A program made the translations under genes and the position numbers. The notes beneath the pieces were generated by a model, which saw nothing but the letters and a program-made list of their open reading frames with translations, ran no database searches and was not told where the DNA came from. A DNA stretch of 64,000 nt from a virus. Every line of letters begins with the position of its first letter. Position 1 is the stretch's first letter. The stretch is taken from the IMG/VR virus record IMGVR_UViG_3300044825_001821, positions 1 through 64,000 of that record; one strand, written 5' to 3'. Positions 2,282 to 62,143 of this stretch are shown here, one piece after another.

Positions 2282-5023
2282 ATGAAATTTAGAGATTTTC
2301 TACGTGAACAAAAGGAAAAACATGCCGTCCTGGCTTTTGGGCGCATGAATCCGATCACGAATGGTCACGAAAAATTAGTCAATAAAGTCAAAGAAATTGC
2401 CGATAAGGTCGGTGGTTCTCATCACATCGTCCTGTCACACTCACAGGACGCAAAGAAAAATCCCCTTACAGCAGACCAAAAAGTCAAACACGCCAAACGT
2501 GCCTTTCCTGGCACAAACTTCACAGCAGCATCCAAAGAGAAACCAACATTCTTTGATCACGCAGAGGCATTACACAAGAAAGGTGTAACGCATCTGCACA
2601 TGGTCGGTGGTTCTGATCGCACAGAAGAATATCACAGATTGCTGCACAAATACAATGGCGCACATGAAGGTGCTCGTTTCAACTTCAAAGAAATTAAAGT
2701 ACACTCGGCTGGTGAACGTGATCCAGATGCAGAAGGTGTGACTGGCATCTCAGCATCAAAGATGCGTGAACATGCAAAGAGTGGTGATCTTGATTCATTC
2801 AAGAAAGGTGCACCATCGTCAATGTCACATGCACATGTCAAACAAATGTTCAATGATGTACGCAAGGGTATGAAACTACATGAAGAAATCATTCGTGAAG
2901 GTGTACATGACAAAGGCATTTTCAAAGCAGTGTTTCTTGGTGGTGGTCCTGGCTCAGGCAAAGACTATGTGTTGAGTAAGACACTTGATGGTCATGGTCT
3001 AACAGAAATTAATTCTGATAAAGCACTTGAGTATCTGATGGACAAAGAGGGTCTTGACAAAAAGATGCCTGACAATGAAGAAGCACAGCGTAATGCAGTT
3101 CGCAAACGTGCAAAGAATGTTACAGAATTGCGTCAGCGTTTGGCTCTTCATGGCCGTAATGGATTGATTATCAATGGCACTGGTGATGATCCAGAAAAGT
3201 ATGCCAAGATTAAAGAAATGCTTGAAAAGATGGGTTATGAAACATCAATGATCATGGTCAATACAGATGATGAAGTATCAAAAGCAAGAAACGTTGAGCG
3301 TGGACAACGTGGTGGCCGCACCGTGCCAGAAAATATTCGTAAAGAAAAATGGGATTCTGTGCAAGCAGCACGCCCAATGTTTGGTAAAATATTTCGTGAT
3401 AGTTATACTGAATTTGATAACTCAGAAGATTTGCGTACAGCACCACCAGAAGTTGTTGAGTCAAAAACAAAAGAGTTGGATGGCATCTTCAAAAATATGC
3501 AGAAGTTTGTAAACAAACCACCGAAGAATGATTCAGCAAAAGGTTGGATTGCTACAGAGTTAGGTAAAAAAGATACTGCACCAATTCGTACCGACATGAA
3601 ACCACATGCTGCTGCCGGCACACATGATGAAATGAACACGATGGGTCTTGAGTATTATGGTTTTGGCCGTTATGGAAAAAATGGTAAAGTCACACATCGT
3701 TCGGTACATGGCAGTCTTGTACCAGTAGAGAAGATTGCAAAAACTGTTGAGACTCATCAAAAGAAAATGGCTAAGATAGATGAAGCCGTTACAGTTTCAG
3801 TTACAGGTGATACAGTAGAAGAAGTTACACGTACACTCCGTTTGCTCAAATCTGATGAAGAGGAAATGACAGAAGAAGATATCAATACAATGTCTGATCC
3901 CGGTGCGTTTAATTTATTAACTCTTGGTCAAAGTATGATCAAAGAAGATTTGCGTAATTGGTTTAATCCAAAACATCCAGAAGGTGGATGGAAACGAATC
4001 AATAGTAAAGGTGAAGCAATAGGTCCTTGTGCAAGAGAACCTGGCGAACCAAAACCCAAATGTATGTCAAATGCAAAACGTGCAAGTCTTTCAAAGAAAG
4101 AACGTGCATCAGCAGTCGCAGCAAAACGCCGTCATGATCCAGTAGCAGATCGTTCAGGCAAGGGTGGAAAACCCGTAAATGTTTCTAGTTATGGCAAAGG
4201 TAAAATAAGTGAAGCTGCTTATCCTGGTAACATTGGTATGATGGAAGTTATGAAGTTTCATCAAAAAGCAACTGACGAGCAGAAGAAACAATTTAAGAAA
4301 CACATGGCTGATAAAAATCACAAAGAAGCGTGGAAATTAGTTCAACATGTATCTGGTACAAAGCTCATTGGTAAACAATTTGAGGAAATAGAAAAGAAAC
4401 AAAAATTATTAACAGATAAAAATGGTAAAGTTCGTTTGTTCTTCATTCGTGGCTCAGCAGCGAAAGAAGCACATCAAAAGGGCGGTACTGTAGCAAAAGT
4501 TGGTAAGAGATATGTTGTCAAACTTAGAGAGGACTTAGATGAAATTTATACACCTAGTGATTCTACGATTGAAATCCATTATGGACAGAATAGTTCCACC
4601 CCTTCCGCAGCAGAATTACAAAAGGGTAGAACCAGTGTTAGAAGAAAAGAAAGACCCAGCGCCGACAAACCCGTTGCCGAAGCAAGAAGAACCATCACCC
4701 TTGCCACAATCAAAGAAAACTGGCAAAAGAAAATCGAAGAGTCAATCGACAAAGGCATAGAACCCGGCACTTCTATGGCTGGCACTGGTGAATCACCTGC
4801 ACGTGATATGGGTGAGAAATTAGATAAGAATGGTAAAGCTACACAAGTAACATGTAATGGTACAGGAGCGGGCATAGATTGTCCAAAGCATGGTGCGAAA
4901 AACTGTAGACTTACTGAACTTACCGGTGATACGACAACAGCAAGCATTGGTGATCAGAAAGAAGATGAATTAAAGAAAAAAGGTATCTCACTAACAACAT
5001 TTAAAAAGAGAAATTACATATGA
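2282..5023 (+). CDS. Multidomain protein: nucleotidylyltransferase + P-loop kinase + virion-type modules
   Basis: This 913-residue mosaic opens with an adenylyl/cytidylyltransferase domain: GRMNPITNGHEKL at residues 20-32 is the (H/N)xGH signature and ISASKMR at 156-162 is the second nucleotide-binding motif, as in NMNAT-type enzymes. A kinase domain follows, with Walker A GGPGSGKDY near 221-229, like zeta-toxin or polynucleotide kinases. The C-terminal half has modules seen in marine T4-like virion proteins (LRNWFNPKHPEGGW, a CAREPGEPKPKCMS segment). Possible prohead-protease sites (I/L-x-E) fall between modules: FLRE, IIRE, KIDE, MIKE, KISE, KLRE, TIKE. The family link suggests NAD or nucleotide salvage plus phosphorylation, possibly delivered with DNA; the delivery part is inference. 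The ATG follows AGGTAGGGGG. Confidence 0.75.
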   Translation: MKFRDFLREQKEKHAVLAFGRMNPITNGHEKLVNKVKEIADKVGGSHHIVLSHSQDAKKNPLTADQKVKHAKRAFPGTNFTAASKEKPTFFDHAEALHKKGVTHLHMVGGSDRTEEYHRLLHKYNGAHEGARFNFKEIKVHSAGERDPDAEGVTGISASKMREHAKSGDLDSFKKGAPSSMSHAHVKQMFNDVRKGMKLHEEIIREGVHDKGIFKAVFLGGGPGSGKDYVLSKTLDGHGLTEINSDKALEYLMDKEGLDKKMPDNEEAQRNAVRKRAKNVTELRQRLALHGRNGLIINGTGDDPEKYAKIKEMLEKMGYETSMIMVNTDDEVSKARNVERGQRGGRTVPENIRKEKWDSVQAARPMFGKIFRDSYTEFDNSEDLRTAPPEVVESKTKELDGIFKNMQKFVNKPPKNDSAKGWIATELGKKDTAPIRTDMKPHAAAGTHDEMNTMGLEYYGFGRYGKNGKVTHRSVHGSLVPVEKIAKTVETHQKKMAKIDEAVTVSVTGDTVEEVTRTLRLLKSDEEEMTEEDINTMSDPGAFNLLTLGQSMIKEDLRNWFNPKHPEGGWKRINSKGEAIGPCAREPGEPKPKCMSNAKRASLSKKERASAVAAKRRHDPVADRSGKGGKPVNVSSYGKGKISEAAYPGNIGMMEVMKFHQKATDEQKKQFKKHMADKNHKEAWKLVQHVSGTKLIGKQFEEIEKKQKLLTDKNGKVRLFFIRGSAAKEAHQKGGTVAKVGKRYVVKLREDLDEIYTPSDSTIEIHYGQNSSTPSAAELQKGRTSVRRKERPSADKPVAEARRTITLATIKENWQKKIEESIDKGIEPGTSMAGTGESPARDMGEKLDKNGKATQVTCNGTGAGIDCPKHGAKNCRLTELTGDTTTASIGDQKEDELKKKGISLTTFKKRNYI

Positions 5024-7001: not shown

Positions 7002-8312
7002 ATGTCAATTTTCAATGACAAAGCACTGAAAGGTGTAGCAGAAGCAGCAGCAAAAATCATGGCAGAAACAAGCCATGGTACACATCCAAAGACACCTAAA
7101 GAAAAATCTTTAGCAGCACTTGCACATCCAAAAGATAAGATTACACACAAAGATGTGTTGGTAGGTCGTGGTGTTCTGAAGAAAGAAGAGAAAGAACAAC
7201 TTGATGAAGTTGGTGATACACCAGCAGGTAGAAAAGCACTTGGTTCATATGTGACCAAAGCAATTGCCGACAAGACAAAAGATCACACAAAAGGTCTGCG
7301 TAAGGCAACATCACGCATGTACAAAGATGATTACTATGGTAAAAAGAATGAAGAAGTTGAACTGAATGAAGAAGCAGAACAACTTCAAGAATATGAATCA
7401 AAAGGTGGCGTATACAAACACAAGGGCACCTACGGTTCTTCATATAAGACAGATGAAGAAGGCGATGAGAAGAAAAGCAAAAAGGGTAAAACCCTTGGTG
7501 CTCGTCAAGATTTTATCCGTTCAACCCGTGAAAATGAAAAACCAGGTGAGTACAAAAAAACTGAAGGCGCATACAAAAAAGAAAGTGATAAGGCTAAAAA
7601 AACTAGAGCCAAAAATTATGAAAGCATGGCAAAATATATTTCTGCAAATGAATCATTGTCATTTACAGAGATGCTTGAATTGTACAATGAACAGGGTTTA
7701 AAAGTTCTTGCACCAATTGAAACGGAAGAAATGAATATTGATGGCACAACAATTGAAGTTATTGATGCCGACAAGGTAAATGGTGTTGTTGAAACTATCG
7801 TTGAAGAACCAACAAACGATGAGTTCACAAAAGAGTTTGAAGATCAAAAAGCAAGTTTTGAGGGTAAAAAGAAACAACCAAAAGTTGCTGCTGGTAAAAC
7901 AACTGGCGTAAAAGTTATGCCAGAAGAAGTTGAACAAATTGATGAGTTGTCAAGAGGCACTTTAGCATCATATACTAATAAAGCAGCGCATAATATGTCT
8001 ACAATGACGGGAATAGCTGCAAAACATTCAACACCAGCGGGCAATCCTAAAAAAGGCTCCGAAGAAAAGGCTAAAAAACTTTCTAAAACTATTGTTAATA
8101 GAATGCATGGTATTAATAGATCAACTTCCCGTTTGGCTAAAGAAGAAGTTGAACAAATTGATGAGCGTGAACTAACAAAAGATGAAGCCAAAAAGAAAGA
8201 AGATTATGTGATGGGTATGAAGAAAGGTCTTTCTGGTTTCAAACAGCGTTATGGTGAACGTGCTAAATCAGTAATGTACGCAACAGCAACTAAGATGGCA
8301 AAGAAAGACTAA
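7002..8312 (+). CDS. Modular virion-associated protein with repeated EEVEQIDE motifs
   Basis: This is a 436-residue Lys/Glu-rich protein with an AGGAG ribosome site. Modules are separated by I/L-x-E motifs: EQLDE near residue 68, EEVELNE and EQLQE near 120-130, EEVEQIDE before LSRGTLASY, and EEVEQIDE before RELTKDE. The C-terminal module GLSGFKQRYGERAKSVMY...ATKMAKKD recurs at the ends of many marine T4-like virion proteins. The repeated cleavage-like motif suggests processing by a prohead protease into several small peptides. No catalytic signature is visible. Confidence 0.65.
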   Translation: MSIFNDKALKGVAEAAAKIMAETSHGTHPKTPKEKSLAALAHPKDKITHKDVLVGRGVLKKEEKEQLDEVGDTPAGRKALGSYVTKAIADKTKDHTKGLRKATSRMYKDDYYGKKNEEVELNEEAEQLQEYESKGGVYKHKGTYGSSYKTDEEGDEKKSKKGKTLGARQDFIRSTRENEKPGEYKKTEGAYKKESDKAKKTRAKNYESMAKYISANESLSFTEMLELYNEQGLKVLAPIETEEMNIDGTTIEVIDADKVNGVVETIVEEPTNDEFTKEFEDQKASFEGKKKQPKVAAGKTTGVKVMPEEVEQIDELSRGTLASYTNKAAHNMSTMTGIAAKHSTPAGNPKKGSEEKAKKLSKTIVNRMHGINRSTSRLAKEEVEQIDERELTKDEAKKKEDYVMGMKKGLSGFKQRYGERAKSVMYATATKMAKKD

Positions 8313-20557: not shown

Positions 20558-21580
20558 ATGAAGAAGTTTTTACTATCAATATTACTTTTCACAGGTGTCG
20601 CATCAGCAGCAGATTTAACCGGTGCTGGTGCGACATTTCCATATCCAATCTATGCAAAATGGGCTGAAGCATATAAAGCAGCAACAGGCATAGGACTCAA
20701 TTATCAATCAATTGGTTCTGGTGGTGGTATCCGTCAAATCAAAGCAAAGACAGTTGACTTTGGTGCATCTGACATGCCATTGAAGCCAGAAGAACTTGAA
20801 AAAGAAGGTCTAACACAATTTCCAGCAATTATTGGTGGTGTAGTACCAGTTGTAAATCTTGATGGTGTAACACCAGGTCAATTGAAGTTGACGAGTGATG
20901 TTGTTGCGGGTATTCATCTTGGTAAAATCACAAAGTGGAATGATAAGGCAATCACTGATTTGAATCCAGGTGTAAATCTACCAGCAATGAACATTACTGT
21001 AATTCATCGTGCAGATGGTTCTGGTACAACATTTGTTTGGACAAATTACTTGGGTAAAGCAAATGCTGAATTTGCCAAAATAGTTGGTGAAGGCACAGCA
21101 GTGAAATGGCCAGTTGGTATTGGCGGCAAAGGTAATGAAGGTGTCGCAGCAAATGTGCAAAGAGTAAAAGGTGCATTTGGTTATGTTGAATATGCATATG
21201 CAAAGAAAAATAAAATTGCATGGGCACAATTAAAGAATCGTGATGGTAACTTTGTACAACCAGATGATTCAACATTCAAAGCAGCCGCAGCAAATGCAGA
21301 TTGGGCAAACGCACCAGGTATGTACTTGTTACTCACATGGCAAACAGGTAAAGACGCATGGCCTGCAACAGGTGCAAGTTTTATTCTAATGCATAAGCAA
21401 CAAGCAGATGCACTTACTGGTCGTGCAATTCTAAAATTCTTTGATTGGAGTTACAAGAATGGCGCAAAGATGAGTGAAGATTTGGAGTATGTACACATGC
21501 CTCAATCAGTTATCAAGTTAGTTCAAGATAACTGGAAAAAGGACTACAAAGGTCCTGACAACACACCTATTTGGAAATAA
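20558..21580 (+). CDS. pstS: Periplasmic phosphate-binding protein PstS
   Basis: This 340-residue protein has a signal peptide with cleavage after GVASA (residue 17). The mature part shows the PstS phosphate-site motifs: GAGATFPYP, SIGSGGGIRQI, DFGASDMPL and HRADGSGTTF. It is complete, with no truncation, and should bind phosphate for the host PstABC transporter. It is followed after 9 bases by an outer-membrane phosphate-porin gene, so the pair covers both envelope steps of phosphate uptake. Confidence 0.95.
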   Translation: MKKFLLSILLFTGVASAADLTGAGATFPYPIYAKWAEAYKAATGIGLNYQSIGSGGGIRQIKAKTVDFGASDMPLKPEELEKEGLTQFPAIIGGVVPVVNLDGVTPGQLKLTSDVVAGIHLGKITKWNDKAITDLNPGVNLPAMNITVIHRADGSGTTFVWTNYLGKANAEFAKIVGEGTAVKWPVGIGGKGNEGVAANVQRVKGAFGYVEYAYAKKNKIAWAQLKNRDGNFVQPDDSTFKAAAANADWANAPGMYLLLTWQTGKDAWPATGASFILMHKQQADALTGRAILKFFDWSYKNGAKMSEDLEYVHMPQSVIKLVQDNWKKDYKGPDNTPIWK

Positions 21581-27860: not shown

Positions 27861-27945
27861 GCGGGTATGGTGAAATAGGTAGACACAGCAGACTTAAAAT
27901 CTGCCGACTTCGGTCATGCTGGTTCGATTCCGGCTATCCGCACCA
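27861..27945 (+). tRNA. tRNA-Leu(TAA)
   Basis: An 85-base type II cloverleaf. GCGGGTA pairs with TATCCGC, the loop CTTAAAA gives anticodon TAA, the variable arm is long and CCA is encoded. Confidence 0.93.
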
Positions 27946-27949
27946 AACA

Positions 27950-28024
27950 CTGGCGTTAGTTCAATGGATAGAACAGTAGCCTTCTAAGCTATAAATGTAG
28001 GTTCGATTCCTACACGCCGGACCA
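27950..28024 (+). tRNA. tRNA-Arg(TCT)
   Basis: Acceptor CTGGCGT pairs with ACGCCGG (one T-G pair), the D-stem is GTTC/GAAC, anticodon TCT, T-loop GGTTCGATTCC, CCA encoded. Confidence 0.92.
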
Positions 28025-41827: not shown

Positions 41828-41903
41828 GCACCCATCGTCTAGAGGCCTAGGACCCTGCCCTTTCACGGCAGTAACACCGGTTCAAATCCGGTTGGGTGTA
41901 CCA
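41828..41903 (+). tRNA. tRNA-Glu(TTC)
   Basis: GCACCCA/TGGGTGT acceptor, loop CTTTCAC, T-arm CCGGTTCAAATCCGG, CCA encoded. Confidence 0.93.
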
Positions 41904-41954
41904 AGTTCTTAATAGGAGACCTGTCATGGATAGTGACAAGAGTGGTAAGATGAA

Positions 41955-42030
41955 GGGAGTATAGTCAAACGGTTAAGACAGCGGACTTTTAATCCGTCAG
42001 GTCAGGGTTCGAATCCCTGTGCTCCCACCA
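41955..42030 (+). tRNA. tRNA-Lys(TTT)
   Basis: GGGAGTA/TGCTCCC acceptor, loop CTTTTAA, CCA encoded. Confidence 0.93.
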
Positions 42031-42064
42031 TATAAAAGTATTTTGATTCAGAGTATTTTTATAT

Positions 42065-42142
42065 GGCACTTTAGCATAGTTGGCCTAATGCGCTGCCCTG
42101 TCACGGCAGAGATCACGGGTTCGAATCCCGTAAGTGTCGCCA
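42065..42142 (+). tRNA. tRNA-Asp(GTC)
   Basis: GGCACTT/AAGTGTC acceptor, anticodon loop CTGTCAC, CCA encoded. Confidence 0.93.
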
Positions 42143-42149
42143 GAATTAT

Positions 42150-42224
42150 TGCCAAGTAGCACAGTGGTAGTGCAGTTGACTGTTAATCAATTGGTCGTTG
42201 GTTCGATCCCAACCTTGGCAGCCA
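42150..42224 (+). tRNA. tRNA-Asn(GTT)
   Basis: TGCCAAG/CTTGGCA acceptor, loop CTGTTAA, discriminator G, CCA encoded. Confidence 0.93.
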
Positions 42225-42593
42225 GTATCCCGCTTACCGTTAAGTGTCAAGTAACGGCGATCCTAATGTCGAAAATGATTAGGCGTATTGTGAGCGTCAA
42301 TCACACGGCAGAACAGAAAATCATATGATAATGCCGCAGAGTCCCGCTTACATGGGAGCCTTATGAAAATACTGTTCCGGTAGCAAGCCAGGCCACCGAT
42401 ATAATAAATTGGACGGACAGAGTAACTGCTCAGTCTAGGGCTTATGGGAGTAAGTAGCTAGACACCTTAATTGTGTTATCTGTAAGCCATGGGCTTGATC
42501 ATGCCTGAGTAACTATGTACACAGACGGTAAATCCGGCCGGCTATTCCGTTGAGCATAGCAAATAGTGCAGATAACACAATTAAGGTAACTGT
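42225..42593 (+). ncRNA. Structured non-coding stretch inside the tRNA array
   Basis: This is 369 bases without a credible gene but full of helices: CCGTTA/TAACGG, CCTAAT/ATTAGG, CGGCA/TGCCG, CGGT/ACCG and a perfect 19-bp long-range stem between 42464-42482 and 42569-42587. Perfect complementarity of that length with divergent flanks indicates a selected RNA structure. It is flanked by tRNA-Asn and tRNA-Gln and would be co-transcribed. The class is not recognised. Confidence 0.6.
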
Positions 42594-42667
42594 TGGGGAT
42601 TAGTGAAATGGTATCACACCGGATTTTGATTCCGAGGTCGTAAGTTCGATTCTTACATCCCCTGCCA
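42594..42667 (+). tRNA. tRNA-Gln(TTG)
   Basis: Acceptor TGGGGAT/ATCCCCT with an open first pair as usual for Gln, loop TTTTGAT, CCA encoded. Confidence 0.92.
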
Positions 42668-42674
42668 AATTATT

Positions 42675-42758
42675 GGGTGACGAGCAGCACTGGTGACTGC
42701 ACCTGACTGTAAATCAGACGCTTCGGCATACTTGGTTCGACTCCGAGGTCACCCACCA
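42675..42758 (+). tRNA. tRNA-Tyr(GTA)
   Basis: GGGTGAC/GTCACCC acceptor, loop CTGTAAA, long variable arm GACGCTTCGGC, CCA encoded. Confidence 0.93.
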
Positions 42759-42932
42759 GTAAACTTGAGTTGTGGCAAGTATAGTCCACAAACAGGAGTG
42801 TAACCTGATTCATACAAAGATAAGTATGAAACGTGAATGAGCCATCTTTTGACCGTGTTCTTTAGGCAGGAAACACATAAGAAAACGGCAGGCGTTAAAC
42901 GTGATTACAATCGCCTAGGTAATCAAAGTATT
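42759..42932 (+). ncRNA. Second structured spacer in the tRNA array
   Basis: No gene. Helices: GTGG/CCAC, TTCATAC (42809-42815)/GTATGAA (42824-42830), GTGTT/AACAC, and AGGCG (42890-42894)/CGCCT (42912-42916) whose loop GATTAC can pair with GTAATC downstream, an H-type pseudoknot. Class unknown. Confidence 0.45.
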
Positions 42933-43007
42933 CGGTCTTTAGTAAAATGGATATTACGGCGGGCTACGGACCCGCAGGTGGGAGTTCGATTCTCTCAGGA
43001 CCGGCCA
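42933..43007 (+). tRNA. tRNA-Arg(ACG)
   Basis: CGGTCTT/AGGACCG acceptor, loop CTACGGA, CCA encoded. A34 would need deamination by TadA. Confidence 0.9.
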
Positions 43008-43098
43008 TATTGAAACACATTGAATCCCAAGGGTACGAGGGGTGGCTGTAGGCCTATATTCCGGTCGATGGGTTCGATTCCCGCAGTGTGTTTCAATA
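43008..43098 (+). ncRNA. tRNA-like element with 15-bp terminal stem
   Basis: TATTGAAACACATTG pairs with CAGTGTGTTTCAATA at the other end (one G-U pair). Inside are a tRNA-like T-arm (GGGTTCGATTCCC) and a possible D-arm, but no normal anticodon arm and no CCA. It is either a decayed tRNA or a tRNA mimic. Confidence 0.5.
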
Positions 43099-43099
43099 T

Positions 43100-43175
43100 G
43101 GGGGATTGGTGCTAATTGGGAACACATGTGCTTTGCAAGCATGAGTAAGCAGTTCGAATCTGCTATCCTCCACCA
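43100..43175 (+). tRNA. tRNA-Ala(TGC)
   Basis: GGGGGAT/ATCCTCC acceptor, loop TTTGCAA, CCA encoded. Confidence 0.92.
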
Positions 43176-43185
43176 AAGTTTTATT

Positions 43186-43261
43186 GCCGGTTTAGCTCAT
43201 CTGGTAGAGCAGGCGCCTTGTAAGCGTCAGGTGGTGGGTTCGAGTCCTGCAACCGGCACCA
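43186..43261 (+). tRNA. tRNA-Thr(TGT)
   Basis: GCCGGTT/AACCGGC acceptor, loop CTTGTAA, CCA encoded. Confidence 0.94.
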
Positions 43262-43269
43262 AGTTTTAT

Positions 43270-43347
43270 CTGAGTGTAATGTCAGCCCGGTAGACGGCCT
43301 GGTTTGGAACTAGGAGGCCGTAGGTTCAAATCCTACCACTCAGACCA
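43270..43347 (+). tRNA. tRNA-Pro(TGG)
   Basis: CTGAGTG/CACTCAG acceptor, loop TTTGGAA, CCA encoded. Confidence 0.92.
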
Positions 43348-43349
43348 AT

Positions 43350-43425
43350 TGCGGGTTAGGGAAGAGGTCATCCCGTCAGGTTCATATTCTGAAGATCGTT
43401 GGTTCGAATCCAGCACCCGCTACCA
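43350..43425 (+). tRNA. tRNA-Met-type (CAT)
   Basis: Acceptor TGCGGGT/ACCCGCT with an unpaired first position, loop TTCATAT, CCA encoded. The three G-C pairs of an initiator anticodon stem are absent, so it is elongator Met or Ile(k2CAU). Confidence 0.88.
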
Positions 43426-43439
43426 ATTATAGGTGACTT

Positions 43440-43910
43440 ATGTTTAAAAAAGAAATTGACTTAAATGAAGTGGCTGCGTTTCTTGATAAATGTGGTCCCG
43501 ATACGAAAGTTTATATTGGTGCGGACAGTGAACGTTTTCAAATCAATGGCGACTGGTTTGCTGATTACATTCTAGCAGTTGTAATTCACATTGATGGTCG
43601 TCACGGCTGTAAGATATTCGGTGCCGTACAACGTGAACGTGATTTTGAACAAAAGAAAAATCGTCCACGTTTTCGTTTGATGAATGAGGTATATAAAGTT
43701 TCAGAATTGTATTTGAAATTGTATGAAGTTATACCACATGACATACAAATTCATCTGGATATCAATCCAAGTGAAATGCATGGCAGTTCATGTGTAGTAA
43801 ACGAAGCGATTGGTTATATCAAAGGTACATGTAATGTTGTACCACTGATCAAACCAAAAGCATTTGCAGCATCATATGCGGCTGATCGTTTCAAAAGTTT
43901 AGCAGCATAA
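43440..43910 (+). CDS. RNase H-like nuclease, YkuK/DUF458-type
   Basis: This 156-residue protein has KVYIGADSERFQ (first catalytic Asp), AVVIHIDGRHGCKIFGAVQRERDFE and IHLDINPSE (second Asp), followed by IGYIKG. These match the YkuK-type RNase H-like fold. It is the only clear protein gene inside the tRNA array, suggesting a role in RNA processing or turnover; that is inference. Confidence 0.72.
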   Translation: MFKKEIDLNEVAAFLDKCGPDTKVYIGADSERFQINGDWFADYILAVVIHIDGRHGCKIFGAVQRERDFEQKKNRPRFRLMNEVYKVSELYLKLYEVIPHDIQIHLDINPSEMHGSSCVVNEAIGYIKGTCNVVPLIKPKAFAASYAADRFKSLAA

Positions 43911-43919
43911 AAAAGTAAT

Positions 43920-43994
43920 GCGGGTATAGCACAGTGGTAGTGCGACACGTTGCCAACGTGTAGGTCATCAGTTCGAATCTGATTATCCGCTCCA
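43920..43994 (+). tRNA. tRNA-Gly(GCC)
   Basis: GCGGGTA/TATCCGC acceptor, loop TTGCCAA, CCA encoded. Confidence 0.94.
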
Positions 43995-43999
43995 GGTAT

Positions 44000-44073
44000 T
44001 TCGGTGTGGCGTAATGGCAGCGCAGGAGTCTCCAAAACTCTTAGTGGGGGTTCGATTCCCTCCACCGAAGCCA
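44000..44073 (+). tRNA. tRNA-Trp(CCA)
   Basis: TTCGGTG/CACCGAA acceptor, loop CTCCAAA, discriminator G, CCA encoded. Confidence 0.93.
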
Positions 44074-44076
44074 AAT

Positions 44077-44171
44077 GGTAGACAGCACTGGTGTGCGGCG
44101 GAGACTTATAAACTCTGGAGAGTGGCTAGATGGGCTGCAACGGCTAGGTTCGAATCCTAGGTCTACTACCA
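44077..44171 (+). tRNA. Atypical tRNA, provisional anticodon TAT
   Basis: GGTAGAC/GTCTACT acceptor, perfect CTAGG/CCTAG T-stem and encoded CCA. The putative anticodon stem GGAGA/ACTCT contains an A-A mismatch and gives loop CTTATAA (TAT, Ile). The variable region is about 27 bases, too long for Ile. Identity is uncertain. Confidence 0.55.
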
Positions 44172-44183
44172 GTGTTTTTTGGT

Positions 44184-44257
44184 GTGGCCATAGTGTAACG
44201 GTAGCACTAGACATTGTGACTGTCTCAGTTCGGATTCAAATTCCGATGGTCACCCCA
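44184..44257 (+). tRNA. tRNA-His(GTG)
   Basis: GTGGCCA/TGGTCAC acceptor, loop TTGTGAC, C73 as in His tRNAs, CCA encoded. Confidence 0.9.
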
Positions 44258-44266
44258 AAAAATATT

Positions 44267-44342
44267 GGTGCTTTAGCTGATGTGGTCATAGCAGTGGCCT
44301 GAAGAGCCTCGGAAGTTAGTTCGATTCTAACAGGCACCACCA
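44267..44342 (+). tRNA. tRNA-Phe(GAA)
   Basis: GGTGCTT/AGGCACC acceptor, loop CTGAAGA, CCA encoded; one mismatch in the anticodon stem. Confidence 0.88.
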
Positions 44343-44343
44343 T

Positions 44344-44417
44344 TGTCCTGTAGTTAAATGGTATAACTGTCGATTGATAATCGACCATTACAAGTTCAAT
44401 TCTTGTCGGGACAACCA
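44344..44417 (+). tRNA. tRNA-Ile(GAT)
   Basis: TGTCCTG/CGGGACA acceptor, loop TTGATAA, CCA encoded. Confidence 0.92.
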
Positions 44418-44422
44418 GAATT

Positions 44423-44497
44423 GGTAGTGTAGCATAATGGTAGTGCGCCACCTTCATACGGTGTTAGGTGTAAGTTCGAATCTTACCACTACTACCA
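44423..44497 (+). tRNA. tRNA-Met-type (CAT), second copy
   Basis: GGTAGTG/CACTACT acceptor, loop TTCATAC, CCA encoded. Differs strongly from the CAT tRNA at 43350, so one may be Ile(k2CAU). Confidence 0.88.
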
Positions 44498-44498
44498 A

Positions 44499-44574
44499 GC
44501 GCCGGTGACGGAACGGTATACGTGTTGGTCTTAGAAACCAAATTCTGAGAGTTCGAATCTCTCCTGGCGCACCA
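44499..44574 (+). tRNA. tRNA-Leu(TAG)
   Basis: GCGCCGG/CTGGCGC acceptor, loop CTTAGAA, CCA encoded. The variable arm is short for Leu. Confidence 0.87.
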
Positions 44575-44580
44575 GTATTT

Positions 44581-44654
44581 GCCTTGTTAGTTTAATGGTA
44601 GAACTCTGTCTTTACACGGCAGTTACGGTGGTTCGATTCCATCACAAGGCACCA
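44581..44654 (+). tRNA. tRNA-Val(TAC)
   Basis: GCCTTGT/ACAAGGC acceptor, loop TTTACAC, CCA encoded. Confidence 0.93.
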
Positions 44655-44661
44655 GTATCAT

Positions 44662-44739
44662 GCAACGGTGGCAGAGTGGTCCAATGCAAGAGTCTGCAAA
44701 ACTCTAAAGCCGTCGGTTCAAATCCGACCCGTTGCTCCA
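44662..44739 (+). tRNA. tRNA-Cys(GCA)
   Basis: GCAACGG/CCGTTGC acceptor, loop CTGCAAA, CCA encoded. Confidence 0.92.
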
Positions 44740-44744
44740 AATAT

Positions 44745-44834
44745 GGAAGTGTGGCAGAGTCCGGTTTATTGCACCTGTCTTGAAAACAGACGTATCGAAA
44801 GGTACCGTGAGTTCGAATCTCACCGCTTCCGCCA
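44745..44834 (+). tRNA. tRNA-Ser(TGA)
   Basis: GGAAGTG/CGCTTCC acceptor, loop CTTGAAA, long variable arm, CCA encoded. Confidence 0.93.
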
Positions 44835-44847
44835 AATAGGAGAAAAA

Positions 44848-45009
44848 ATGTTGATACTTACAACAATGCTGACGATGATATTTTATTGGGTATTGTTTGG
44901 TTTATCTGTAACGGCATTTTTATTCGTGATGTATGGTATCGCAATAGTATCTGGAGTGTTGGCCGAGTTGGTCGAAGGCACTTTCCTGCTAAGAAAGCAT
45001 ACCCCATAA
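44848..45009 (+). CDS. Small membrane protein overlapping a tRNA gene
   Basis: This is a 53-codon frame with a strong AGGAG site. Residues 1-40 are hydrophobic (two membrane segments). Its last 19 codons are read from the 5' part of tRNA-Ser(GCT), giving the tail LVEGTFLLRKHTP. The good start and composition argue that it is real. Confidence 0.6.
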   Translation: MLILTTMLTMIFYWVLFGLSVTAFLFVMYGIAIVSGVLAELVEGTFLLRKHTP

Positions 45010-45044
45010 GGGTATCATTGGTTCGAATCCAATACACTCCGCCA
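44953..45044 (+). tRNA. tRNA-Ser(GCT)
   Basis: GGAGTGT/ACACTCC acceptor, loop CTGCTAA, long variable arm ACCCCATAAGGGT, CCA encoded. It overlaps the end of the small membrane-protein gene. Confidence 0.93.
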
Positions 45045-45045
45045 C

Positions 45046-45074
45046 TTGACAACGTTTTTTCATTGATATATAAT
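45046..45074 (+). promoter_or_regulatory. Consensus sigma70-type promoter (TTGACA-17-TATAAT)
   Basis: Both hexamers match consensus. The -35 begins two bases after the tRNA-Ser CCA. Confidence 0.87.
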
Positions 45075-45098
45075 GTTTACTGTCGCATGGAGAAAGAA

Positions 45099-45260
45099 AT
45101 GAAAGGTAAAACTTTGAAAAAACTGTCCAAACCACGGAATTTTGTGGCAAAAGACTTATTCACACCGAAATATCGAATAAGAGTTGAGCACTCATCTGTA
45201 AATTTTTACAATCGTGCTTCCGAAAAACAAAATTTCCGAAAACAAAATGTCTATTTTTAG
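45099..45260 (+). CDS. Small basic protein
   Basis: This is a 53-residue protein (MKGKTLKKLSKPRNFVAKDLFTPKYR...) with GGAG before ATG 45099. It is a short family seen in T4-like aquatic phages. Function unknown. Confidence 0.6.
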   Translation: MKGKTLKKLSKPRNFVAKDLFTPKYRIRVEHSSVNFYNRASEKQNFRKQNVYF

Positions 45261-45684
45261 AAAAAAAGTTGAAGAACCCGTCGATCCACCCGTTTCAGGT
45301 AATGAAATGGATGATTTTGACGGTTTTTATTTTGTTCCTGATGATGATGACTTTGAAAATAACTATAAAATGATATTTTTCAACATGAAAGATGAATATT
45401 CCAACTCAAAACCAGTTGAGAGTTCACACATGGGGCTAAAATATCACTTGTGTTTTTTCAAAACCGATGAAAATGGCGCTCCTGTGTTTGATGATGCGTT
45501 TGAAGCCATACTTGTTGACCCTTTAACGTATGTGAAGAGCATGACAGGCTCAGGAATTGGTGGTTGTGTCTTGAAAAAGACAGAAAAATCGGATGGATGG
45601 TGGACTGATTACTTGAATTTCATCACCGGTGGCGAATTTAAGCAAAAAGTAAGAGAGGCATTCGGTTCTATCGCAAACAATTGA
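45247..45684 (+). CDS. Hypothetical protein
   Basis: This is a 145-residue acidic protein with a DDDDFENNYKMIFFNMKDEY region. It starts inside the previous gene and there is no clear ribosome site. Function unknown. Confidence 0.5.
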   Translation: MSIFRKKVEEPVDPPVSGNEMDDFDGFYFVPDDDDFENNYKMIFFNMKDEYSNSKPVESSHMGLKYHLCFFKTDENGAPVFDDAFEAILVDPLTYVKSMTGSGIGGCVLKKTEKSDGWWTDYLNFITGGEFKQKVREAFGSIANN

Positions 45685-45686
45685 TC

Positions 45687-46004
45687 ATGAAAGTGAGGAT
45701 TGATAAATTTATGGAAAAAATATTCGACCCAAGTTACAAAGATTACAAAACAAGCCGTAAATGGCTGATTGGTTTGCTCGAAAGTGAGATTGTAGAAATT
45801 ACTTTCTTAAAAAAAGACGGAACTGAACGTATAATGAATTGTACGTTACAAGAAGATTACTTACCAGAAACAGTTGGCTCTGATAAAGATAAAAATAGTG
45901 ATGCACTTGCGGTTTTTGATGTAGACAAAGAAGATTGGCGCTCATTTCGTTGGGATTCAGTAAAACGAATTTCATTTTCTATTGGTGGAGAACATAATGC
46001 CTAA
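45687..46004 (+). CDS. WYL_2-like beta-barrel protein
   Basis: This 105-residue protein has IVEITFLKKDGTERIMNCTL followed by ALAVFDVDKEDWRSFRWDSVKRI, the phage WYL_2/SH3-like fold pattern. Such proteins are thought to bind ligands or nucleic acid. The ATG is preferred to TTG 45681. Confidence 0.65.
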   Translation: MKVRIDKFMEKIFDPSYKDYKTSRKWLIGLLESEIVEITFLKKDGTERIMNCTLQEDYLPETVGSDKDKNSDALAVFDVDKEDWRSFRWDSVKRISFSIGGEHNA

Positions 46005-46287
46005 GTATATCGTAGAACAAATTTCTGTACACCGCAGTGTATTTGTGGTCGAAGCGGATAACCAAGAAGATGCTAAAAAAGTTGCGGCAGTTGCCGATGA
46101 CAATTGGCAACAATGGCTTGGTCAACTTGATGTTGATGTGAATGAGTATTCTGAAGAAAGAATTGCTTATTTCAAACACAAAGATTATTTCTGGGATGGT
46201 GTTTCATACAAAGACAGTGATGGATACCTTGCATATCATCACCCATCAGGTGAAGATATAGAACGTAAGGAAATTGTCATTCGTTAA
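45997..46287 (+). CDS. Small hypothetical protein
   Basis: This is a 96-residue protein (MPKYIVEQISVHRSVFVVEADNQEDA...). GGAG selects ATG 45997. Function unknown. Confidence 0.55.
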   Translation: MPKYIVEQISVHRSVFVVEADNQEDAKKVAAVADDNWQQWLGQLDVDVNEYSEERIAYFKHKDYFWDGVSYKDSDGYLAYHHPSGEDIERKEIVIR

Positions 46288-46293
46288 TCAAAT

Positions 46294-46371
46294 GCGGACG
46301 TAGTGTTCAACGGTTAGCACGTGAGCCTTCCAAGCTTGAAGTGAGGAGTTCGAATCTCCCCGTCCGCTCCA
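46294..46371 (+). tRNA. tRNA-Gly(TCC)
   Basis: GCGGACG/CGTCCGC acceptor, loop CTTCCAA, CCA encoded. Last tRNA of the array. Confidence 0.92.
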
Positions 46372-59565: not shown

Positions 59566-59745
59566 ATGACTAAAAAATCTTTGCAGAAAAGAGTAGCACT
59601 ACTGAATGAATACATCACAAGAGAAATAGAAAAAGAAATGTCAAATGAAATCACACAGATGGAAAGAGACAACACTGCAAAGATAGAAAAGAAGTATCCA
59701 AGACAAAATTATCCATATCATAGTCGAAGTCACTACATTACATAA
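59566..59745 (+). CDS. Small charged protein
   Basis: This 59-codon frame (LNEYITREIEKEMSNEITQMERDN...) has CAGGAG upstream. Its stop overlaps the exonuclease ATG. Confidence 0.5.
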   Translation: MTKKSLQKRVALLNEYITREIEKEMSNEITQMERDNTAKIEKKYPRQNYPYHSRSHYIT

Positions 59746-60410
59746 TGCGAATATTTGAACATGTAAAGTTACCGCAACTACAATTTGATCTGAATGCTGA
59801 AACTACCGATAGTGGTAGACTTTATACTACGCCAGAAGGCAACAAGTATAAGTCTATCACTACGGTGCTTTCTAATTACAACAAGCAATACATTATGGAA
59901 TGGCGTAAGGCTGTTGGTGAAGAGCAAGCAAATAAAATATCAAGCAAGGCAGCAAATCGTGGTACAAAAGTACACAAAATATGTGAAGATTATCTGAACA
60001 ATGAAATACCAGAACTGAAGATGCAGATGATGATGCCTGATCTGAAGGAATTATTCTTCAAGATCAAGCCTTACATTGATGAGAATGTCGGCAAGATTTA
60101 CTCACAAGAGCAAGCACTTTACTCCGACAAATATCGTATTGCTGGCCGGGTAGACTTAATTGCCGAGTGGAATGGTAAGTTGTCGGTTATTGACTTCAAA
60201 ACTTCCACGAAGCAAAAAGACGAAGAGGATATTCAGAATTACTTTATGCAGTGTACAGCATATGCACTGATGTTTGCTGAACGAACTGGTATGTGGATTG
60301 ATGATATTGTGGTGCTGATTGCTACTGAAGAAGGTCCGGCGCAGGTCTTTGAGCGCCAGATTCATGATTATCGTGTGCCTCTATTAGAGTATATTGATAA
60401 ATATGCCTGA
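59745..60410 (+). CDS. PD-(D/E)XK exonuclease
   Basis: This 221-residue protein has ITTVLSNYNKQYIMEWR, ANRGTKVHKICEDYL (His/Glu), IAGRVDLIAEWNGKLSVIDFKTS (catalytic Asp and D-x-K) and QCTAYALMF. It is the RecB/MGME1-like phage exonuclease layout. It probably works in DNA processing or recombination. Confidence 0.83.
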   Translation: MRIFEHVKLPQLQFDLNAETTDSGRLYTTPEGNKYKSITTVLSNYNKQYIMEWRKAVGEEQANKISSKAANRGTKVHKICEDYLNNEIPELKMQMMMPDLKELFFKIKPYIDENVGKIYSQEQALYSDKYRIAGRVDLIAEWNGKLSVIDFKTSTKQKDEEDIQNYFMQCTAYALMFAERTGMWIDDIVVLIATEEGPAQVFERQIHDYRVPLLEYIDKYA

Positions 60411-60958: not shown

Positions 60959-61129
60959 ATGCAAATTAGTGAAACAGAATATGATCAAAAACTTGAACAG
61001 TATTTGAAAGAGCAAGGACCAAATCCCGGTACCACATTTTTTGGTGCTTGGGGTTGGTATGCATCAAAGAAGAATCAGTTTGAGAAACAAATGCAGCAGG
61101 AAGGAATTGTTGTAATCCCTTCAAAGTGA
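60959..61129 (+). CDS. Small hypothetical protein overlapping the tmRNA acceptor piece
   Basis: This 56-codon frame (MQISETEYDQKLEQYLKEQGPNPGTT...) has GGAG upstream. Its last codons lie within the predicted 5' part of the tmRNA acceptor piece. Confidence 0.5.
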   Translation: MQISETEYDQKLEQYLKEQGPNPGTTFFGAWGWYASKKNQFEKQMQQEGIVVIPSK

Positions 61130-61424
61130 AGGCATTCTGGACGGCGGTTCGATTCCGCCCATCTCCACCAAAAGCATCTTGATGGCTATAAGGTTGTAGA
61201 TTTGATCACCTACAATACGCTGTGTGATGGGTGCTTTTGATGGGGATGATCTGGTTTCGACAGGGTGAGATAGTGGAGAAGGCAACACGAAAGGCGACGG
61301 ACGTAATCCGAGCAAAATAAGTAATCGCAAATGACGACTACTACGCTCTAGCAGCCTAAAAATTGTTAGATGGGGTTTAAGTGGGTTGTACCTTATTACC
61401 AAAACAGCCCACATCAAATTCAGA
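61105..61424 (+). ncRNA. ssrA: Circularly permuted tmRNA
   Basis: The acceptor piece comes first (about 61105-61170): T-arm GGCGG/CCGCC with TTCGATT loop at 61143-61159, CATCTCC at 61160-61166, then ACCA. After a 71-base intervening hairpin comes the coding piece from 61242: GGGGATG pairs with CATCTCC (7 bp) and TCTGGTTTCGACAGG is the tmRNA D-analogue. CAGGGT (61261-61266) pairs with ATTCTG (61134-61139) and GAAGG (61278-61282) with CCTTC (61118-61122), rebuilding helix P2 across the pieces. The tag frame from resume codon GCA 61327 to TAA 61359 encodes ANDDYYALAA. A GTGGGTTGT/ACAGCCCAC helix follows. It rescues stalled ribosomes. Confidence 0.9.
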
Positions 61425-61432
61425 GATATATC

Positions 61433-62143
61433 ATGCGTGTACATATTGGTCCTTATACAAACTGGTTTGGTCCTTATCAATTAGCAGAACTGCTTTGCTT
61501 TTGGGTAAAAAAAGTTCCTGATGAGCATGGCTTCAAACGACATCCAGATTGGGTTCATGATTTTGGTACTTGGCTGTCTGAAGATAAAAATGGCAAATCA
61601 TCTTGGCTAACTAAGTTTTGTTGGTGGGTTGATGGTCACAAGAAACGCAAAATCAAAGTACACATTGACAAGTACGATACATGGTCAATGGATCACACAT
61701 TGGCTCACATTATTTTGCCGATGTTGAAACAACTGCGTGATACCAAACATGGTTCACCACTAGTCGAACTTGAAGATTTGCCAGAAGAACTATGCATGAC
61801 GGGATATGATGACGGTTCATCACAATTCAGATTGAAGTTTGAAGATGATGAACAATATGAAAAAGAATCTTGGGATATTACACATCGTCGTTGGGAATGG
61901 GTATTGAATGAAATGATTTTTGCGTTCGAACATCTGCTTGATGATTCGTGGGAAGAAGCATATCGTTCTGGTCACATTGATATGCAGTTTGTGCCATGTG
62001 AAGATAACCCGAAACTATCACACATGGTAGATGGACCCAATCACACATACCAATGTGATTATGATGGTATGAATAAAGTATATGATCGCATGGATAACGG
62101 TTTTCGTTTGTTTGGAAAATATTACAGAGGACTTTGGGACTAA
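61433..62143 (+). CDS. Conserved phage protein
   Basis: This is a 236-residue Trp/Asp/His-rich protein (MRVHIGPYTNWFGPYQLAELLCFW..., KYDTWSMDHTLAHIILPMLKQL) conserved in aquatic T4-like phages. ATG 61433 is used because the longer frame from 61370 would lie inside the tmRNA. Function unknown. Confidence 0.68.
   Translation: MRVHIGPYTNWFGPYQLAELLCFWVKKVPDEHGFKRHPDWVHDFGTWLSEDKNGKSSWLTKFCWWVDGHKKRKIKVHIDKYDTWSMDHTLAHIILPMLKQLRDTKHGSPLVELEDLPEELCMTGYDDGSSQFRLKFEDDEQYEKESWDITHRRWEWVLNEMIFAFEHLLDDSWEEAYRSGHIDMQFVPCEDNPKLSHMVDGPNHTYQCDYDGMNKVYDRMDNGFRLFGKYYRGLWD

Follow-up and report, generated by a model that had tools for sequence, protein, structure and literature searches.

The window analyzed here, comprising the first 64,000 nucleotides of the 172,439-base virus record IMGVR_UViG_3300044825_001821, harbors an intact, circularly permuted (two-piece) beta-type tmRNA gene on its plus strand (positions 61,104 to 61,422; Table 1). 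The record derives from a T4-like phage and encodes a T4-like gp23 and a terminase, the best relatives of its gp23 being those of cyanophages (approximately 64%), with pelagiphage HTVC008M near (62%). The window additionally contains 25 tRNA genes (positions 41828 to 46371 and 27861 to 28024), the majority in a single cluster, and a phosphate transporter subunit gene (positions 20558 to 21580; PHROG 5385, E 5e-62). The tmRNA gene is preceded by a PDDEXK-type exonuclease gene and a small open reading frame (ORF) and is followed by a gene whose PHROG family has no assigned function. A scan for sigma-70 promoters near the tmRNA gene returned no more matches than expected by chance.

Table 1. Features of the permuted tmRNA gene and its neighbors (window positions; ITS, intervening segment between the two pieces)
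Feature	Position	Strand	Evidence
PDDEXK-type exonuclease gene, conserved upstream neighbor of the tmRNA	59745..60410	+	PHROG 298, E 8.7e-72
Small upstream ORF, 56 aa; last codons (IVVIPSK-stop) inside the acceptor piece	60959..61129	+	Homologs in relatives
Acceptor piece: P2 strands, T arm (61143-61159); putative mature 5' end	61104..61170	+	Rfam match, covariation
Acceptor 3' strand CATCTCC (61160-61166), discriminator A61167, encoded CCA (61168-61170)	61160..61170	+	
ITS, 71 nt: outer stem AAAGCATC/GGTGCTTT, inner hairpins	61171..61241	+	Fold, covariation
Acceptor 5' strand GGGGATG, pairs with 61160-61166	61242..61248	+	Covariance model, covariation
Start of coding piece: D-loop-like region (TGGTTTCGAC), P2 strands, first pseudoknot region	61249..61326	+	
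Tag frame: resume codon GCA, ANDDYYALAA, stop TAA	61327..61359	+	ARAGORN, gene positions 250-282
3'-terminal hairpin, loop ACCTTATTACCAAA, beta-type feature	61381..61412	+	Rfam, covariation, fold z -3.9
Downstream gene, PHROG 11543, no function assigned to family	61433..62143	+	Start from homolog alignment

The identity of the gene was confirmed by covariance models of permuted tmRNAs, the check proposed in the initial annotation of this sequence. Rfam RF01850 matched positions 61066 to 61422 over its full length (model positions 1 to 331 of 331) with 166.5 bits (E 1.2e-51; threshold 84), and RF04321 matched positions 61108 to 61359, likewise in full (1 to 213 of 213), with 160.2 bits (E 4.5e-32; threshold 47). 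The alpha-type model reached 54 bits compared to the 166.5 bits of the beta-type model and the beta-type 3' hairpin is present, which together place the gene in the beta type. ARAGORN called a permuted tmRNA at positions 61078 to 61450 with the tag ANDDYYALAA, and a loose pattern describing the gene break occurred once in the window and in none of 100 shuffled sequences. The acceptor stem and the ITS form one extended hairpin of -34.1 kcal/mol (z -4.8), a stability attained by none of 200 shuffles, and the ITS terminates with TGAT where RNase P cleavage is expected. G61244 and U61164 constitute the G3-U70 alanine identity pair. The initial annotation was correct as regards coordinates and anatomy, including a 71-base intervening hairpin and an intact tag; this tag is closed by a TAA stop.

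The initial annotation had also proposed that the acceptor stem and helix P2 are re-formed across the break, which was assessed by covariation in a set comprising the window and 21 relatives (22 sequences), these relatives recombining and hence not being independent. In this set, 96.7% of cells were paired, a value which fell to 42 to 54% when partners were slid by one to three columns, while 133 double-changed cells were counted against 39.5 in shuffles, with none of 500 shuffles as high. Across the gene break, all seven acceptor stem pairs were present and 100% paired, three of them being double-changed; the 3' strand occurs as CATCTCC, CAGCTCC, CACCTCC, CTAGTCC, CTGGTCC, or CAGGTCC, in each case with a matching partner, and the G3-U70 pair was constant in 22 of 22 sequences. 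Double changes were likewise found at seven of nine pairs of the outer ITS stem. Covariation also upheld the lower part of P2, which joins both pieces (100% paired, with one double change), while the middle of this helix is ambiguous, a local hairpin fitting the alignment equally well as the long-range helix. When the entire strand was folded, the minimum-energy structure did not show P2. Among the pseudoknots, just the first stem of one was counted, of which three of five pairs were present in the window, two being lost in window-like sequences. Tags vary among the relatives, their frames remaining open and ending mostly in LAA or MAA. A paired acceptor stem, a fixed G3-U70 pair, and open tags represent the expected trace of selection on a working, alanine-charged tmRNA. 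Separately, the tmRNA of L022 (relatives and other search loci are designated L followed by a number) has an unusual T loop, GGCAGCA, accompanied by corresponding changes in P2, and the clade members L024 and L030, with CCACTG in the acceptor piece, do not encode the CCA.

Conservation of the locus was surveyed by searching viral contigs with the upstream exonuclease (positions 59745 to 60410), which yielded 33 loci. A permuted tmRNA lies behind the exonuclease in 30 of the 30 loci in which this protein is at least 59% identical and downstream DNA is present; 29 of these genes were called by ARAGORN and that of L020 by covariance model. L020, on which ARAGORN was silent, had been considered as a locus lacking the tmRNA and was ruled out as such upon this detection. 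The loci without a tmRNA are L043 and L045, whose exonucleases are just 44% identical; in L046, the locus is cut off. The two-piece tmRNA of phage Melnitz is likewise located downstream of a PDDEXK nuclease gene, yet is of alpha type, from which it follows that the location is common to both whereas the type of RNA is not. Since mobile elements are commonly located at tmRNA genes (PMC11915505), a nonfunctional remnant acquired by chance from a host could be envisaged; the compensatory changes in several helices, the constant G3-U70 pair, and the presence of the gene at 30 of 30 loci render this origin exceedingly unlikely. On the 5' side, two unrelated small upstream proteins share the tail IVV(I/T)PSK, which is encoded by the acceptor piece (the small ORF of the window and those of L014, L015, L019, L048, L049, L058, and L067), and protein genes therefore overlap the 5' side of the tmRNA.

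Comparison of 39 distinct tmRNAs of this clade revealed that their ITS fall into discrete types. The tmRNAs of the window and L014 are near-identical in the acceptor piece and in the coding piece through the tag, while their acceptor stems and ITS differ; L068 and L070 share 99% identity in the coding piece and possess unrelated ITS, and, conversely, L063 and L070 share their ITS fully with coding pieces only 77% identical. In 25 pairs, the ITS was at least 93% identical and the coding piece less than 85% identical, and the two identities were uncorrelated overall (rank correlation, 0.06). Because the acceptor halves always match, exchange of the ITS either carries both halves or is followed by compensation. 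The ITS is, therefore, a modular slot which is swapped between otherwise near-identical tmRNAs, a finding that is new in this analysis. The core ATGAAAGAAACCTCTGAGGGCT is common to the ITS types of L014, L017, L048, L131, and L134, in which the flanking stems differ and appear complementary. No Rfam family was detected inside the ITS cassettes of 11 loci at E values up to 10.

The ITS of the window contains no ORF; in other viral contigs, by comparison, it often holds a small ORF under purifying selection. Viral permuted tmRNAs with a long ITS were gathered by pattern and retained if they possessed a full acceptor stem and T arm, giving at least 149 distinct ITS in at least 97 clusters, of which at least 81 have an ITS of 90 nt or more. 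Two classes of nested frame were distinguished. Stop-class frames, defined by an ATG in the first 17 nt and a stop in the last 16 nt of the ITS, were present in at least 24 of the at least 81 long-ITS clusters, against 2.67 expected and a maximum of 9 in 500 shuffles that kept both ends, and an antisense control gave 1 cluster among the matches listed. Non-stop-class frames, which remain open into the mature coding piece, were present in at least 18 clusters, against 4.24 expected and a shuffle maximum of 9. The typical stop-class ITS opens with TAAGGA, a ribosome-binding-like motif within the outer stem, followed by an ATG approximately 11 nt past the CCA; among the matches listed, exactly one nucleotide separates the stop from the acceptor strand in 18 of 29 distinct ITS, most of these stops being formed by the TGA within the recurrent terminal TGAT, near the RNase P site. 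For the non-stop class, 27 of 31 sequences among the matches listed exit in the same frame, often with the tail G..MVSTG. Members of the stop class include L415, L416, L419, L426, L383, L392, L364, L389, L263, L273, and L370, and those of the non-stop class the L244 family, L136/L141/L395, L261/L328, L375/L412, L397/L399, and Melnitz (L012, from position 8097 onward), a cultured phage whose ITS frame begins with MFKWLSKTRL. Nested ITS ORFs also occur within the exonuclease group of the window (L026 and L040).

The nested products are many and unrelated, comprising membrane peptides, CxxC zinc-like peptides, and others, and the contigs bearing them carry phage-type genes next to the tmRNA in most cases where neighbors were checked. 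Their shortness and AT richness, the lack of a known homolog for most, and their derivation from metagenomic contigs, Melnitz excepted, would befit chance open frames or assembly noise. This explanation is considered unlikely given the excess of both classes over shuffles, the single antisense cluster, the near-fixed distance of the start, and the recurrent placement of the stop 1 nt before the acceptor strand. Furthermore, homologous pairs, of which those within a family are not independent, display pN below pS in the stop class (0.111 versus 0.274) and in the non-stop class (0.079 versus 0.235), and two nested ORFs, the only ones with such matches among those listed, correspond to PHROG families (PHROG 13558 and PHROG 4098). 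The predicted role of the ITS as a cargo slot is thus well supported by statistics. In a tree of the mature halves (approximately 150 sites of recombining sequence), which is descriptive only, ORF-bearing tmRNAs are scattered among ORF-free ones, with 26 changes over 30 tips. The annotated "hypothetical protein" that overlaps the Moby tmRNA was considered as a further nested gene and rejected, as its coordinates do not fit the ITS, and inspection by eye of the long ITS in the bacterial genome L464 revealed no clear nested ORF. Searches of open-access papers returned no relevant report on ORFs in the ITS of permuted tmRNAs.

Novelty, which the initial annotation had implied for the window gene, was rated too high, as was permutation as a hint to the host, although its reading of a real and intact two-piece phage tmRNA stood. 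A total of 53 two-piece tmRNAs, mostly aquatic, have been counted in phage genomes (PMC9004378), and the form is covered by RF04321, which is described in a study listing 79 phage tmRNA sequences (PMC11915505); with two-piece phage tmRNAs already published, the ITS slot represents the new part. As regards the host, permuted tmRNAs were detected in phages of Stenotrophomonas, Xanthomonas, Pseudomonas, Acinetobacter, and Synechococcus. The first four of these host genera themselves possess a one-piece tmRNA. Occurring in phages of such diverse hosts, permutation says little about host identity and does not reveal the host of the window phage. Melnitz similarly carries an alpha-type tmRNA although its host belongs to another lineage (PMC9004378). 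The suggested comparison with host tmRNAs yielded no close bacterial donor among 399 Burkholderiales genomes, in which the best DNA match was 78% over approximately 120 nt, and an exact 36-base pattern had no match in the genome contigs searched.

The betaproteobacterial permuted tmRNA (RF01850 and RF04321) resembles that of the window in gene order, acceptor and P2 pairing, the G3-U70 pair, tag type, the beta-type 3' hairpin, and the full-length model match, the window gene differing in being phage-borne and without SmpB. The window ITS measures 71 nt, in contrast to a median of 28 nt (range, 5 to 58) in 18 parsed bacterial genes, all of beta type, long alpha-type bacterial ITS lying outside this parse; moreover, CCA is encoded in the window, whereas several bacterial copies read ACCC or ACCT. 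The SsrA of the Methylophilales phage Melnitz shares with the window gene its two-piece form, a T4-like phage genome, and its position 3' of a PDDEXK nuclease gene, but is of alpha type (RF01849, 106.7 bits), is followed by a glutamine riboswitch, and contains an unannotated frame without a stop inside its ITS. The Stenotrophomonas phages (Menderavirus), XacN1, UF_RH6, BUCT628, BUCTxx99, and S-SSM7 possess the same two-piece form with other loci, tags, and ITS, that of S-SSM7 being of cyano type. In the Xanthomonas phage XacN1, a GOLLD RNA (L003, positions 4342 to 4755) is located approximately 1 kb downstream of the permuted tmRNA. The ITS ORFs are also comparable to homing endonuclease genes within group I introns of tmRNA genes (PMC11915505), in that a protein gene occupies a removable part of the tmRNA, but here the removable part is the permuted gene's ITS, which is expected to be excised by tRNA-type processing, and the small ORFs yielded no endonuclease match.

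SmpB, which the initial annotation had noted as missing from the window, was not found in the entire 172,439-base record, nor in the complete isolates Melnitz, Mosig, and Marzo; the tmRNA should thus depend on host SmpB. The absence of a phage-encoded SmpB would equally suit a decoy whose tRNA-like domain titrates host SmpB or AlaRS and so inhibits host rescue, for which phage DS6A provides a precedent: it retains little beyond the tRNA-like domain, a similar molecule inhibits tmRNA, and a decoy was proposed (PMC4131195). Nearly all distinct clade relatives retain the tag frame, resume codon, and degradation-type tail, which would be dispensable in a decoy, making such a role very unlikely for the window gene. 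Based on the observed sequence, fold, covariation, locus conservation, ITS swapping, and ORF statistics, we consider it highly probable that the window encodes a working two-piece beta-type phage tmRNA which uses host SmpB and whose ITS loop serves as an exchange slot.

Processing, charging, SmpB use, expression, and benefit to the phage are predicted from sequence as follows. A single precursor would be made, the halves of which pair via the acceptor stem, P2, and the additional ITS stem. RNase P would then cleave 5' of GGGGATG and host tRNA 3'-processing would release the CCA end, leaving two RNAs joined by base pairs. The G3-U70 pair is presumed to direct charging with alanine, and binding of host SmpB would allow the phage tmRNA to rescue ribosomes stalled on broken or non-stop mRNA during infection, the products being tagged with ANDDYYALAA. 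As only the outer stem of the ITS appears to be required, the loop could serve as a slot for exchanged sequence, holding structured RNA in the window and small protein genes elsewhere. In the stop class, the ribosome-binding site would lie in the outer stem, with a single base between the UGA and the RNase P site; in the non-stop class, RNase P cutting would convert the message into a non-stop mRNA, itself a substrate of tmRNA. It is probable, on the strength of the ORF statistics and selection, that the ITS of phage two-piece tmRNAs is a cargo slot for small protein genes of both classes; the coupling of RNase P maturation to the output of nested small proteins is speculation.

While the window gene adds a further conserved beta-type case to the known phage tmRNAs, and its split form tells little about the host, the pattern of the ITS at the level of the family is of greater importance than the single gene. 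A possible reason for a phage to favor a split RNA gene emerges from this pattern, as the spacer is left free for cargo in a manner comparable to introns with endonuclease genes. A group of small phage proteins that lack annotation is indicated as well, including one in cultured Melnitz, along with feedback that may connect the maturation of tmRNA with translation.
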